DNA from: Acidimicrobiales bacterium
Lineage (GTDB): Bacteria; Actinomycetota; Acidimicrobiia; Acidimicrobiales; MedAcidi-G1
Length of the DNA stretch: 64,000 nucleotides
Assembly (NCBI GenBank): GCA_029242745.1
Contig: JAQWTI010000012.1
Location: 62,001 to 126,000 of the forward strand
Reading direction: 5' to 3'
The position numbers and the translations under genes were made by a program. This document shows positions 2 to 26,291 of the stretch, one piece after another; position 1 is the first letter of the stretch, and each line of letters begins with the position of its first letter. The notes under the pieces were generated by a model, which saw only the letters and a program-made list of their open reading frames with translations, was not told the DNA's origin and searched no databases.

Positions 2-451
2 GTTTGGGCCATGGTCTTCGGGAAATCGAGGGCCCGACTCATCGCGACTCCGTCGCCTGACGATCGTGCCTTCGCAACTGGCCCCCTCCACGAACTGTTT
101 GAGCAGCAGGTTGAACCATTGGTTGGAGAGTGGGAGAACTATGGGCTCCGTGCTGGAGACGATTTAGGGCTCTACGCCGAGACGGGCATCGTCCACCCTG
201 CGGTCTGGCCTTCCCTAGCAAACTCTGTCGTAAAACGGAACCTCGTGGAGGGACCCTGGATCCACACCCGAAGCCGGATCCGCCATCACAGCACGGCCCA
301 AGTCGGGGCTGCAGCGGTGGTTGATGCCGTCTTGGTTGACCGGTTTGAGACACGTAGTGGTTTGCGGGCCGTGCTGGATGTGCGGATCAGTGTCGATGGG
401 GTGCTGGTGGCCAGCCTTGAACACGAGGCACTCGTGTCCCTCCACCCCTGA
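2..451 (+). CDS. Hot-dog-fold (MaoC/acyl dehydratase-like) protein, 5' end cut by window
   Basis: The frame is open from base 2 with no stop upstream, so the true start probably lies outside the window; the first ATG inside is at 11. The last 70 residues (GPWIHTRSRIRHHS, then alternating hydrophobic strands ending in LEHEALVSL) resemble the C-terminal half of a MaoC-like hot-dog domain as found in acyl-CoA hydratases and thioesterases. No catalytic Asp/His motif is visible in this part, so a non-catalytic half of a double hot-dog protein is possible. The family call rests on pattern only. Coding sense and the end point are fairly secure; the function is not. Confidence 0.5.
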   Translation, partial: VWAMVFGKSRARLIATPSPDDRAFATGPLHELFEQQVEPLVGEWENYGLRAGDDLGLYAETGIVHPAVWPSLANSVVKRNLVEGPWIHTRSRIRHHSTAQVGAAAVVDAVLVDRFETRSGLRAVLDVRISVDGVLVASLEHEALVSLHP

Positions 452-731
452 TGACAGCACTCATGGCCGGCCGACTGGCCTGCCATCACTCGCAGACGAG
501 GGTGTTCCATCGCCAAAAATGTTGATTGGGTTTACTTAGACCCCAAGGGCTGTCTCCAGGGCCTTCCAGATGAGGTGATTTAAGAACACCGCTGAACCTT
601 CCCGTTTGTCGATATAGCAGATCTACGGGACTAGCCCGCTTACAGGTTCTGCTATTGCAATGCCATGGTTACGGTGCTCCCCTGCCGGCACCTCGCTGCT
701 ACCAGAGTTGACACGGTTGCTACGGTTGTCC
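452..731. other. Intergenic stretch, 280 bp, no gene seen
   Basis: Between the hot-dog protein and the SRPBCC gene I see no credible coding region. A TTGACA lies at about 714, too close to the ATG at 732 to act as its -35. No tRNA or clear terminator is visible. Confidence 0.4.
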
Positions 732-1241
732 ATGACCGAAATACGTGTGGAACGAACCATCCAAGTCCAGCGGGTAATTGCAGCCGCACCGGCGGCCATC
801 TTCCAGGTGTTGGCCAGTCCCGCTGGGCACGTAGCAATTGACGCCTCGGGCATGCTCATGTCGGCTAGTGGGCCCCCAGTGGCCGCCGTGGACGACCGTT
901 TTACCGTCCAGATGGATCGTGAATCGTTGCAAGACTTTCCGCTAGGTGAGTACGAGGTCATCGTGGTCATAACCCGGTTTGAGCAAGATCAGGCAATTGC
1001 TTGGACGGTCGATGGAGCACTCCAACCACCAATCGGACACGTGTATGAGTACGAACTGGAACCGGCTGACGGCGGAACCCTCGTCACCTCTACCTATGAC
1101 TGGTCAAGGATTCATCCGGATTGGGAGGCGGCCGCCGAAAGTATTTTCCCAGTCATCTCTGAAACCAACCTACGAGCGACCTTAGGTATCCTCGCTCGGA
1201 CCGTGGCACCTGGTGCGGCTCGCCCAGGCGCTGGCGACTGA
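732..1241 (+). CDS. SRPBCC / polyketide cyclase-like ligand-binding protein
   Basis: A 169-residue protein of the START/SRPBCC type. It begins with a first strand of the form RTIQVQRVIAAAP, followed by a helix (AIFQVLASPAGH), which is the classic opening of this fold, and it ends in a long C-terminal helix (the NLRATLGILARTV segment). Such proteins bind hydrophobic ligands or act as cyclases, and often regulate or assist neighbouring enzymes; the ligand cannot be read from sequence. The ATG at 732 starts exactly at the domain edge; an in-frame ATG at 660 would add 24 residues unlike the family. It lies 28 bp upstream of the probable AhpD-like selenoprotein on the same strand, so the two are probably co-transcribed. 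Confidence 0.75.
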   Translation: MTEIRVERTIQVQRVIAAAPAAIFQVLASPAGHVAIDASGMLMSASGPPVAAVDDRFTVQMDRESLQDFPLGEYEVIVVITRFEQDQAIAWTVDGALQPPIGHVYEYELEPADGGTLVTSTYDWSRIHPDWEAAAESIFPVISETNLRATLGILARTVAPGAARPGAGD

Positions 1242-1269
1242 CAGCATCTCTAGACGGAGCCGATGACCG

Positions 1270-1821
1270 ATGGCATGGATAGAGACGATTCGTGAAGACG
1301 AGTGGGATGGCCCGCTTGCAAACCTGCTCACCGCCGTAGTGGACCCCGGTCACGACCGGGTCGACAACATCATGCAGATCCACTCGCTGAACCCACAGGC
1401 CATGACCGCCCACGTTGGCCTCTACAGGTCGGCAATGACTGGCACAAAGACCTTACGTAAGGTCGAACGTGAGCTCCTTGCCTTGATTGTTAGTCGCTAC
1501 AACGATTGTCATTACTGAATAATCCACCACCGGCGCGGTCTGCGTCGGCTACTACGAGATGATGCCCTTCTATCAGCCATTGATGAAGATTGGCGGACCG
1601 CTGGTATGTCGGAGAAGCGGTTGGCCATGCTGGCATATGCAGAGAAGTTGACGGGTCATCCCGGAGATGTCGTCGAAGCTGACATAGTGGGCCTTCGAGA
1701 TGTGGGGTTCAGCGACCGAGACATCCTTGACATCTGTGAGGTAGTGGGCTACTACGCCTATGTAAATCGCATCGCTGACGGCCTTGGTGTATCACTCGAA
1801 TCGTGGCTTCCGGCCACATAA
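1270..1821 (+). CDS. AhpD/carboxymuconolactone decarboxylase-like selenoprotein (CxxU), UGA at 1516-1518 read as Sec
   Basis: Two pieces (1270-1515 and 1519-1821) are in one frame, separated only by a single TGA at 1516-1518. Together they give 183 residues, the usual size of peroxidase-related AhpD-like proteins. The UGA falls exactly where the second Cys of the family's CxxC active site belongs: Glu68, Cys80-His-Tyr-Sec83, His87. The 12-residue Glu-to-Cys spacing and the His at +4 match the Glu118/Cys130/Cys133/His137 layout of M. tuberculosis AhpD. Both flanking parts look like the family. Eighteen bases after the UGA sits a SECIS-like hairpin (1530-1548). Such proteins reduce peroxides or disulfides; Sec would replace the nucleophilic thiol. 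The alternatives are a nonsense mutation or sequencing error, but a random stop would not be expected at this residue with this hairpin. No selA, selB or tRNA-Sec lies in the window. Confidence 0.88.
1530..1548 (+). promoter_or_regulatory. Bacterial SECIS-like hairpin inside the AhpD-like gene
   Basis: A 7-bp stem (1530-1536 with 1542-1548, including one G-U pair at 1533/1545) closes a 5-base loop, GGUCU, at 1537-1541. The loop starts 18 bases after the UGA. From memory, the E. coli fdhF SECIS has the same GGUCU in its apical loop, followed by GC, also 18 bases after its UGA, and SelB contacts the loop G and U. Bacterial SECIS rules (loop 16-37 nt from UGA, G among the first two loop bases) are satisfied. 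A counterpart of the fdhF bulged U in the stem is not obvious. Confidence 0.82.
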
Positions 1822-1835
1822 TGGCCAAGTAGACC

Positions 1836-2873
1836 TCAGTCGAATGCGGGCATTACCTCGTCACAGAACAACTGCATGGAACGTTTCTGCTCTTCAAGAC
1901 CTAGGCCGAGACTCGCGTAGTAGATGAACTCGTCCACGCCGAGAGTTTCATAGCGGCGGAGTTTTGCGATGACCTCGGCTGGGGTACCAAACAGTAGGTT
2001 CTCGCTGAGGGTCTTTGGCTCGTAGTCCGCCGCATTTGACACCTGATCCATGGGGATAGTTCCCGGAAAGCCGTCATGAACGTCACCTAGGTTCTTAAAG
2101 AGGTTCTCGAACTGGCTGAGCTGACGCTGGGCGGCTTCCACAGGCACCATCCACTCCTCGACCGAGTCGTATACCACTGTGTGACGCATCAGGGCCCACG
2201 TGGGGGTTGGGCAACCGGGGTGATCGGCAATCGACTTGTCGAGTTGTGATCGGTAGAGCTCGGCTTCAGCAAACGGCCTCGCTATAGGCCACGACATAAC
2301 GTTGCAACCATTTTTCACGGCGTAGTCAAAAGTAATTGGTGATCGCGCAGCCACCCATATAGGTGGGTGGGGTTGTTGTAGAGGCTTAGGTACCGACGTT
2401 GATGTGGGAAATGACCACATTTCGCCGTTATGCGCATAGTCACCGGACCACAACTCCTTGAGGATGGGGAGCATTTCTTGCATGTAACGCCAGGCATCTG
2501 ACTGCTTCAGGCCGGGGCGCATACGATCGAATTCGCGTTGGTAGGCGCCTGATCCGATACCGAACTCAAGGCGACCACCGCTAATCAGATCAAGGAAAGC
2601 CGCTTCACCCGCCAGTTTGATGGGGTGCCAGTAGGCGGCTACAGCCACTGCAGAGCCAAGTCGGATCCGATCAGTATGACAAGCCCACCAAGTCAGAATC
2701 TGCAGCGGGTTAGGGGCGATGGTCATTTCGAGAGCGTGGTGTTCAGCGGCCCACGCAATGGTGAAACCACCTTCCTCCGCCATCTGGACCATCTCAAGGG
2801 TATGGCGGGCAACGTCGCCCATTAGGCGGCTGTCATCGAGTCGTTCCAAGTTGATAGCGAGTTGGAACTTCAT
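1836..2873 (-). CDS. Luciferase-like (LLM) flavin-dependent oxidoreductase
   Basis: A 345-residue bacterial luciferase-like TIM-barrel protein: N-terminal strand MKFQLAINLERLD, the WAAEHH motif near residue 41, and the GGRLEFGIGSGAYQREFD segment near residue 100. Enzymes of this group use FMN (or F420) and usually attack aldehydes, alkanes, sulfonates or small heterocycles; the substrate is not readable here. The ATG at 2873 has a GAGGAG ribosome site 9 bp upstream and overlaps the stop of the upstream PhyH gene by four bases (ATGA), so both are translated from one message. It converges on the AhpD-like gene with only 14 bp between stops. Confidence 0.85.
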   Translation of the reverse strand: MKFQLAINLERLDDSRLMGDVARHTLEMVQMAEEGGFTIAWAAEHHALEMTIAPNPLQILTWWACHTDRIRLGSAVAVAAYWHPIKLAGEAAFLDLISGGRLEFGIGSGAYQREFDRMRPGLKQSDAWRYMQEMLPILKELWSGDYAHNGEMWSFPTSTSVPKPLQQPHPPIWVAARSPITFDYAVKNGCNVMSWPIARPFAEAELYRSQLDKSIADHPGCPTPTWALMRHTVVYDSVEEWMVPVEAAQRQLSQFENLFKNLGDVHDGFPGTIPMDQVSNAADYEPKTLSENLLFGTPAEVIAKLRRYETLGVDEFIYYASLGLGLEEQKRSMQLFCDEVMPAFD

Positions 2874-3850
2874 GGCGAGGTCTCCTCGTCAGTGCCTGCA
2901 GGGTTTCTATGCGTAACCGGGTCACACCGAAGGTTGTATACAGAATCAGGATCAGGGCCCACGTGGATGACCGATGGCTTAACCAAGTTTGCAGAGATAG
3001 CCCCTAGGGGAAGCATCGGGAACCAGTCTTCCCGAAGTTTCTGTCCCTCAACCATTTCGTGACCATCAAATGGTGGGGAGGTCCGGCCACGGCGCTGAAC
3101 GTAACGAGCGTTGTCACCCACCATCCGTAGGGAAAAGGCACGACGGAGCCTTGAGGAGCCACGGGCCCCGTGGACAGTGCGATAGTGGAAAGCCACGGCG
3201 TCACCAGGCTCGCAGGCCCACTCGAGGACCTCGATCTGCTCTGGCTCGTTATCAGGATCCAGGGCGGGCTGAAAGCCGCCGCTGTGCCTTGTCTCGTCAT
3301 CACCGTAGAAACCTTGCATCGTGGTCCAGTCCACCGGGTGGACAGGTTCTTCCCAAAGGTGAGAGCCGCGAATTAACCGAAGTGTCGACTCCACCGGGAC
3401 AGGGTCCAACGGGATCCAGATACTGACCGTCTGCGGCCCATCGACGAAGTAGTAGGGCGCATCACAGTGCCATGGGGTATGGCGGGACGCCCCTGGTTCT
3501 TTAACCAGAACGTGATCGTGGAATAACTGCACAGTGGCGGACCGCATCAGCCCGGCTGCTACCTGCGCAATCCCCGACTGGAAGGCAAAGCTTTCGAATT
3601 CCGGTATGCGCGACCAGTTGCAGTAGTCATCCCAGAAGCGGCCCAGATCATTGGTTGTGCCGTTGTCATTGAAAAACTCACTGGGGTGAATTGCGTTTTG
3701 GGTTATTCCTCTGGTCAGAGTGTCAATCCAGTCAGTAAAGAGACCCCGTAGGTGTACGGCACCATCGGCAGCGAAAGTGTCTGCTAGATCAGCGCCCGCA
3801 CGGTGTAGGTGATCAAACACGAAGACAGCGTAGATGCCCGACGACGCCAT
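2870..3850 (-). CDS. Phytanoyl-CoA dioxygenase (PhyH) family protein
   Basis: A 326-residue Fe(II)/2-oxoglutarate dioxygenase. The metal triad is visible as His128-x-Asp130 (in PWHCDAPYYF) and His227 (in FHYRTVHGARG), followed by Arg residues at about 234-237 for 2-oxoglutarate. Substrates of this family range from phytanoyl-CoA to ectoine and small amines. The frame is open up to 4066, but the extra 72 residues are low-complexity and unlike PhyH, so the ATG at 3850 is preferred; its ribosome site is weak. It overlaps the downstream luciferase-like gene by 4 bp and is divergent from the M20 deacylase at 4086. Confidence 0.85.
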   Translation of the reverse strand: MASSGIYAVFVFDHLHRAGADLADTFAADGAVHLRGLFTDWIDTLTRGITQNAIHPSEFFNDNGTTNDLGRFWDDYCNWSRIPEFESFAFQSGIAQVAAGLMRSATVQLFHDHVLVKEPGASRHTPWHCDAPYYFVDGPQTVSIWIPLDPVPVESTLRLIRGSHLWEEPVHPVDWTTMQGFYGDDETRHSGGFQPALDPDNEPEQIEVLEWACEPGDAVAFHYRTVHGARGSSRLRRAFSLRMVGDNARYVQRRGRTSPPFDGHEMVEGQKLREDWFPMLPLGAISANLVKPSVIHVGPDPDSVYNLRCDPVTHRNPAGTDEETSP

Positions 3851-4085
3851 CAATGGTGGACGGCCCTCAGGGTGACCCTTAGGGAAGTGGAGCGCTCCGT
3901 GGTCCTGTCTAAGCGCGGGGTCACTGGTTGGGGTGGCTTGGGTCGCATTGGAGCTTGAGGTGCTTTCAGCTCTCACACAGCGGACACTAGAGATCTCGTA
4001 ATGACTCGCAGCCGTAGCCTGTTCAAATTGTGAATATTTACGACATCCTTTTGACGTATGTCTCAACGTCTACCACCATGCGGAG

Positions 4086-24854: not shown

Positions 24855-25819
24855 GGGAGAGCCCGTTTAGTAAGAGCGAGGGCAATGGCTCCGGCGGTCG
24901 CCGCGTTGTGGACTACTAGGGCCACGTTGGCCTCCAGACTGGCGCCATCAGTAGCCAAAGCTACGTGGGCCAACAGGAACGGAGTGACGTCACGACCGGT
25001 CACCCCAGCGGCGGTCACCGCGGCCAGTCCGCTCTCGATGGCTGCCGTGATGACTGCTGGATCAGCCTCATCAGACATCGGGATGGGGTTGGCCACCACC
25101 ACACCACTGGTCAGTCCACAGCCCCAGTGGGCACTGAGGATGGCTGCTGTGGAGGCTGGGTCGTCACATCGAAACGACACTGGGAGGTCACCTCCCCGGG
25201 TCCAGAACTCGGGTAGAACGTCGGTGCCTTGACCGATCACCGGGACGCCGAGGGTCTCGAGGGCCTCAACGGTGCGATCGAGGTCGAGAATGGCCTTGGC
25301 GCCGGAGCAGACTACGGCTACGGGAATGGTGGCCAGCGCTGTGAGATCGGCTGATATGTCGTGACTCGGTCCAGTCTGGCCAGAGCGATGGGCCCCGCCG
25401 ATCCCACCAGTTGCAAAGACCCGGATTCCCGCCTGAGCCGCTGCGAACATTGTGGCAGCCACCGTGGTGGCACCCGTTTTACCTTGAGCAAGTGCAGCGC
25501 CCAGGTCTCGCAGGCTTACCTTGGCTATGCGGCCAGTGTGGTCTGTGCCACTGGCTAGACGTTCCAAGTCAGTGGCCGCTAAGCCCACTCGTATATTCCC
25601 ATCCAGTATGGCGACGGTGGCTGGTACAGCCCCTGCGTCTCGTATAGCCATTTCGCAGGCTTGGGCAGTCTCGAGATTACGGGGGTACGACATACCGTGG
25701 CTGATAATGGTGGTTTCCAAGGCCACTACGGCCCGGCCGGAGGTCAAGGCAGCAGCCACGTCGGATGCCACGACAAGTTTGCTGTGGGCCATACTTCTTG
25801 GAATGCTGTCTGATGCCAT
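24851..25819 (-). CDS. psuG: Pseudouridine-5'-phosphate glycosidase
   Basis: A PsuG/IndA-family enzyme of about 320 residues that splits pseudouridine 5'-phosphate into uracil and ribose 5-phosphate. Recognisable segments are ALETTIISHGMSYPRN, the KTGATTVAATMF loop with the family lysine, FATGGIGGAHR, and CSGAKAILDL. There is no PsuK kinase next to it; it is paired with the YtcJ-like amidohydrolase. Starts at 25843 (GTG), 25819 (ATG) or 25792 (ATG) are possible; the family length fits the two ATGs. Confidence 0.9.
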   Translation of the reverse strand: MASDSIPRSMAHSKLVVASDVAAALTSGRAVVALETTIISHGMSYPRNLETAQACEMAIRDAGAVPATVAILDGNIRVGLAATDLERLASGTDHTGRIAKVSLRDLGAALAQGKTGATTVAATMFAAAQAGIRVFATGGIGGAHRSGQTGPSHDISADLTALATIPVAVVCSGAKAILDLDRTVEALETLGVPVIGQGTDVLPEFWTRGGDLPVSFRCDDPASTAAILSAHWGCGLTSGVVVANPIPMSDEADPAVITAAIESGLAAVTAAGVTGRDVTPFLLAHVALATDGASLEANVALVVHNAATAGAIALALTKRALP

Positions 25820-25955
25820 GGGCACCAGTGTGCCCTTTGACACGCTCGGTCTGTCCCGTCGGGCTCAGAAGGACCTCCCATTAGACTGGTGACTTCTCCG
25901 GAGTGGTTTTCATCGAAGTCCCAAACCGGAGCCCGGTCCCGAGGAGGCATCCCCA

Positions 25956-26291
25956 GTGGCAGGCAAGAGCCCCAAGAGTACGCCAGCAGCGATTGGTATT
26001 GTGAAGTCCGTCGAGTTTGACGACCGTGGCGCCGTTCTGATTTTTGGTGATTCATCCACGACCTCGACATTGGTGCTCGACGTGGAGCCCAATGTTCGAG
26101 GGGCTGAGCGTCGGCTTAAGGCATTCCACGACGTCTACACAGTGGTCGTTAAGGCTGATGCTGATGATGTTTCGGCTGAGTTGTACGGTGTAAATCACAA
26201 TGGTGAGGTAAATCGTCCGGTGCCCATGGCGGACGCTCTAGGCCTATGGGAGTTGGGCGTACCCATTCGTGTGGAGCGAGCTGCTGCATGA
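25956..26291 (+). CDS. Hypothetical protein, 111 residues
   Basis: Unrecognised. GTG start with a strong GAGGAGG ribosome site 10 bp upstream, so it is probably real. The protein is acidic and soluble, beta-rich (GIVKSVEFDDRGAVLIFG, then TLVLDVEPNVRG), with no membrane segment and no cysteine. It is divergent from psuG and stands alone before a 250-bp gap. Function cannot be guessed. Confidence 0.6.
   Translation: MAGKSPKSTPAAIGIVKSVEFDDRGAVLIFGDSSTTSTLVLDVEPNVRGAERRLKAFHDVYTVVVKADADDVSAELYGVNHNGEVNRPVPMADALGLWELGVPIRVERAAA

Follow-up and report, generated by a model that had tools for sequence, protein, structure and literature searches.

The window analysed here, a stretch of 64,000 nucleotides from a genome of the Acidimicrobiales, very probably carries the gene for an AhpD-like selenoenzyme of the TIGR01926/COG2128 family, in which UGA at codon 83 would be decoded as selenocysteine (Sec) by means of a downstream hairpin and Sec83 would attack a peroxide or disulfide substrate. 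The evidence comes from the conservation of the interrupting codon and of the reading frame beyond it, from the hairpin, and from the Sec machinery of the same genome.

The interrupted frame and the conservation of its TGA codon

When TGA was read as Sec (U), the gene translated into 183 residues up to a closing TAA, codon 83 being its single TGA (Table 1). This bears out the proposal of an initial sequence-only reading, which placed the lone TGA where an AhpD-like CxxC has its second Cys. The active-site motif is E68-x11-C80-H-Y-U83-I-I-H-H87, and its four key residues (E68, C80, U83, and H87) were unchanged throughout an alignment of 21 Sec homologs, with Glu68, Cys80, and His87 at the positions originally assigned to them. 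A GGAG sequence lies at 1256-1259, 10 nt upstream of the ATG. Ordinary gene calling ends this open reading frame at 1518 and shortens genes of this type. A scan of the whole window revealed no other TGA-interrupted frame with a redox motif; the only other sizeable candidate, at 25521-26291 on the forward strand, is probably due to chance and was dropped as a further selenoprotein because it matched no Pfam family.

Table 1. Features of the selenoprotein locus, in window coordinates.
Feature	Position	Strand	Basis or remark
SRPBCC/polyketide-cyclase-like gene	732..1241	+	Pfam Polyketide_cyc2, slightly under cut-off; tblastn
AhpD-like selenoprotein gene (predicted)	1270..1821	+	183 aa; residue 83 Sec; start ATG 1270, stop TAA 1819-1821
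Glu68 codon, candidate proton-relay Glu, 12 before Cys80	1471..1473	+	Invariant; role inferred from AhpD
TGT codon of Cys80 (first Cys in CHYU)	1507..1509	+	Invariant in 21-sequence alignment
In-frame TGA, predicted Sec83, second position of CxxU	1516..1518	+	Homolog conservation; Cys in distant homologs
Codon of the active-site His87, 4 residues past Sec83	1528..1530	+	Invariant; aligned to 3c1l His
Bacterial SECIS-like hairpin CCGGCGC-GGUCU-GCGUCGG, loop 1537-1541	1530..1548	+	Fold, covariation, frozen synonymous sites, fdhF likeness

The Sec codon was TGA in 104 of the 105 homologous genes that were read and TTA in the remaining one. This set comprised the window gene, its homologs in related genomes and the best 80 of 422 relatives in a scan of genome_contigs, with some genomes reached twice and 89 distinct sequences around the UGA. 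A search of 41 related genomes provided 25 close homologs, the window gene included, each with exactly one TGA, and the homologs from related genomes were 40-80% identical to the window protein; among the best 80 of the 422 relatives, TGA was found in 79 and TTA in one (L082). In more distant homologs the UGA column is occupied by TGC or TGT, so that Cys aligns with the proposed Sec, an alignment that the sequence-only reading had suggested as a check. It had also held that TAA or frameshifts here in close relatives would count against the proposal; the one departure from TGA among the genes read was TTA. Moreover, dN was far below dS before as well as after the TGA. Downstream of the hairpin it amounted to about 0.1-0.36 against dS values above 2 or saturated, which shows that the region 3' of the TGA is translated.

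These results bear directly on the possibility that the TGA marks a pseudogene or a sequencing error and that the product is only a fragment of 82 residues. Standard gene calling, which stops at 1518, agrees with such a fragment, but an identical TGA in about a hundred genes of many assemblies and strong purifying selection 3' of it refute this explanation, whose probability we regard as negligible. No viral copy of the gene was found in a scan of IMG/VR.

The exceptional homolog carries TTA in place of TGA at L082:3247-3249 and is otherwise intact, with the SECIS hairpin kept. A search for selA in its genome gave no match (the assembly may be incomplete), and the observation fits a loss of Sec together with the change from TGA to TTA; one base may also be wrong.

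The hairpin and the selenocysteine machinery

The hairpin stands right after the UGA, beginning 11 nt 3' of it, and has a G in its apical loop, the arrangement by which a bacterial SECIS was recognized here. Across the 89 distinct sequences the GGUCU loop was the same in all except one, and compensatory changes were observed in five of the seven stem pairs. Covariation reached 27 cells compared with 13.0 in shuffled alignments, and none of 500 shuffles scored as high; since this control does not preserve relatedness among the sequences, more weight is given to two other results. When the partner strand was slid by 1-3 columns, paired cells dropped from 89% to at most 49%. Besides, the pairs run through Arg-Arg-Gly-Leu-Arg-Arg codons, so that synonymous codon use can be measured at the hairpin itself, and synonymous entropy at codons +6 to +8 was 4-9% of that expected, against 90% on average elsewhere; Gly +7 was GGT and Leu +8 was CTG in 95 of 96 genes each (4-5% of expected entropy).

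RNAalifold alone recovered the inner five pairs, and the outer two were often unpaired across homologs; the conserved core therefore consists of five pairs. The stem occurs in variants such as CGCCGC/GCGGCG, CGTCGC/GCGACG, and CGACGC/GCGTCG, all with the GGUCU loop, which also closes the stem GGAGAA/TTCTCC of a homolog of 40% identity (L057). In thermodynamic folding, the hairpin of the window itself was no more stable than shuffled sequences (z about -0.1 to -0.9), so the case for a SECIS rests on conservation and covariation; an Rfam scan of the window gave no match. In Escherichia coli fdhF, GGUCU lies 18 nt from the UGA, exactly as in the window hairpin (the fdhF query used matched the annotated fdhF gene). 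Nearly 90 distinct co-varying hairpins constitute clean material for the study of bacterial SECIS elements.

The genome containing the window (G000; 2.44 Mb, 94.7% complete) was searched for selA, selB, selC, and selD, as the sequence-only reading had advised, and all four were present. The genes selA (401 bits) and selB (265 bits) are adjacent on contig C46, and the encoded SelB has winged-helix and beta-barrel domains; a tRNA-Sec with anticodon UCA (67.5 bits) lies some 13 kb from them, while selD on contig C11 (L070:1544-2488, G000:C11) has an in-frame TGA of its own and is Sec-containing (GAG-U-GCK). With these parts, the hairpin would position SelB, loaded with Sec-tRNA(UCA), at the ribosome, and UGA 83 would be translated as Sec.

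An open frame alone does not reveal the residue that is inserted, and UGA could in principle be read as another amino acid, through a reassigned code or near-cognate read-through. This is very improbable given the alignment of Cys with UGA in distant homologs and the presence of complete Sec machinery together with a co-varying SECIS. Reassignment in particular was rejected: TGA is the commonest stop of the long non-overlapping frames of the window, ending 24 of 41, and hence serves there as an ordinary stop.

Family, structure and predicted chemistry

The window protein matched Pfam CMD and, with 132.3 bits against a cut-off of 81.8, NCBIfam TIGR01926 (residues 3-174 on positions 2-173 of the 178 in the model), in one stretch spanning both sides of the TGA. 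The AlphaFold2 model had a mean pLDDT of 79, rising to about 87-93 near the active site, and its top Foldseek matches were 6k40, 2pfx, and 3c1l. The peroxidase-related AhpD-like protein of Deinococcus radiodurans (6k40) and Mesorhizobium Mlr4105 (3c1l) share its fold (TM about 0.73-0.77) and the layout of its active site at 32-34% identity, and in the alignment 3c1l has Cys where the window protein has Sec. Mycobacterium tuberculosis AhpD (1gu9, 1knc) shares the general fold, at ~10% identity, TM about 0.5-0.6, and E 0.04 or worse, and the window protein is no close sequence or fold match of this AhpC-reductase type, even though the spacing of Glu, Cys, Cys, and His is presumably the same in both. 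Its close relatives are those of the peroxidase-related group TIGR01926/COG2128, and M. tuberculosis AhpD is only a distant fold match. The initial description as an AhpD-like selenoprotein whose Sec takes the second Cys position of CxxC stands.

Another model, NF041238 (AhpD_rel_CFYUT (seleno)protein), describes proteins that have a CxYU motif and a CMD fold like the window protein but are two-domain proteins of ~360 aa, compared with 183 aa here; with 47.3 bits against a cut-off of 175, the window protein is not a member.

By analogy with DR1765 of D. radiodurans, the enzyme is likely a selenol peroxide or disulfide reductase. The selenol of Sec83 would make the attack, with His87 and Glu68 activating it like the second Cys in AhpD, and would reduce a peroxide or disulfide-type substrate; Cys80 would then resolve Sec83 as a selenenylsulfide, and a cellular dithiol, for instance a lipoyl or thioredoxin-type donor, may regenerate the enzyme. 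Few TIGR01926 proteins have a known activity. In D. radiodurans, absence of the AhpD-like DR1765 renders cells sensitive to H2O2, and good complementation depends on its CxxC (PMC8945050).

A selenoprotein with a chemistry other than peroxide reduction, for instance reductive dehalogenation or the reduction of a disulfide in a partner protein, was also considered. The debrominase Bmp8 (6ohi/6ohj) is among the fold matches, and deiodinases use selenium for dehalogenation. As to partner disulfides, AhpD itself passes electrons to AhpC (PMC8945050). However, Bmp8 is only 17-18% identical to the window protein, to which, among solved structures, the peroxidase-related proteins come closest (31-34% identity), and no AhpC or halogen-related gene was found among the neighbors examined (window 11-4066). 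We therefore hold such chemistry to be rather unlikely, if still a serious contender, and favor the peroxide or disulfide reductase. The SRPBCC-like gene ends 28 nt upstream of the selenoprotein gene, a position kept in several genomes of the genus, and the two are possibly co-transcribed; beyond the genus, no conserved neighbor pointing to a substrate was detected.

Distribution in Acidimicrobiia and relation to marine selenoproteins

Among the 247 genomes sampled from the class, 63 had the TGA form of the gene (E <= 1e-25) and 170 had selA. All 63 genomes with the TGA form had selA, against 107 of the 184 others (Fisher p = 7e-13, computed on counts obtained by matching the two genome lists by eye). 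Selenocysteine use is thus widespread in Acidimicrobiia, contrary to the expectation of the sequence-only reading that it would be uncommon in this lineage, and the TGA enzyme is found in many relatives. The open-access literature searched contained no report of selenoproteins of Acidimicrobiia; at the level of the phylum, Actinobacteria had already been described in 2006 as selenoprotein-rich on the basis of few genomes (PMC1794560).

The kind of selenoprotein is itself already known, because AhpD-like TIGR01926 proteins with CxxU are listed among predicted selenoproteins in the table of a 2026 review (PMC13188914), and because such proteins were first described from the Sargasso Sea in 2005 (27 sequences; PMC1088965), appeared in the GOS data of 2008 as "AhpD-like 1" (299 sequences; PMC2398784), and represent 9.5% of marine selenoprotein genes (PMC9402790). 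Their occurrence in marine metagenomes, which the sequence-only reading had mentioned, is thus published. The Sargasso and GOS sequences share with the window gene the family model, a CxxU motif with Sec in second position and a SECIS just downstream, a likeness at family level; they are environmental sequences without a genome, whereas the window gene lies within an Acidimicrobiia genome that has Sec machinery. The host lineage and the extent of the family within it are the additions made here, and a selenoprotein family that had been seen chiefly in marine metagenomes now has a host with complete Sec machinery. More tentatively, and with somewhat more doubt than confidence, we suggest that the Sec form may be the fixed, old form of the enzyme across Acidimicrobiia, lacking a close Cys version, and that this class, including its streamlined 1-Mb genomes, may be a main source of the abundant host-less AhpD-like selenoproteins of ocean metagenomes.

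Other interrupted CMD genes were encountered as well. A two-domain CMD protein with a CFYU motif, resembling NF041238, occurs in the same genus (L067/L068; G006:C3, G022:C73) and is a second AhpD-type selenoprotein candidate, and further CMD proteins with an in-frame TGA were seen in other families of the order (L065 and L066; motifs CPFU and CHYU). A second Sec subfamily, with a CEYU motif (L161, L162), was present in 1-Mb genomes of family f39 that also have selA.
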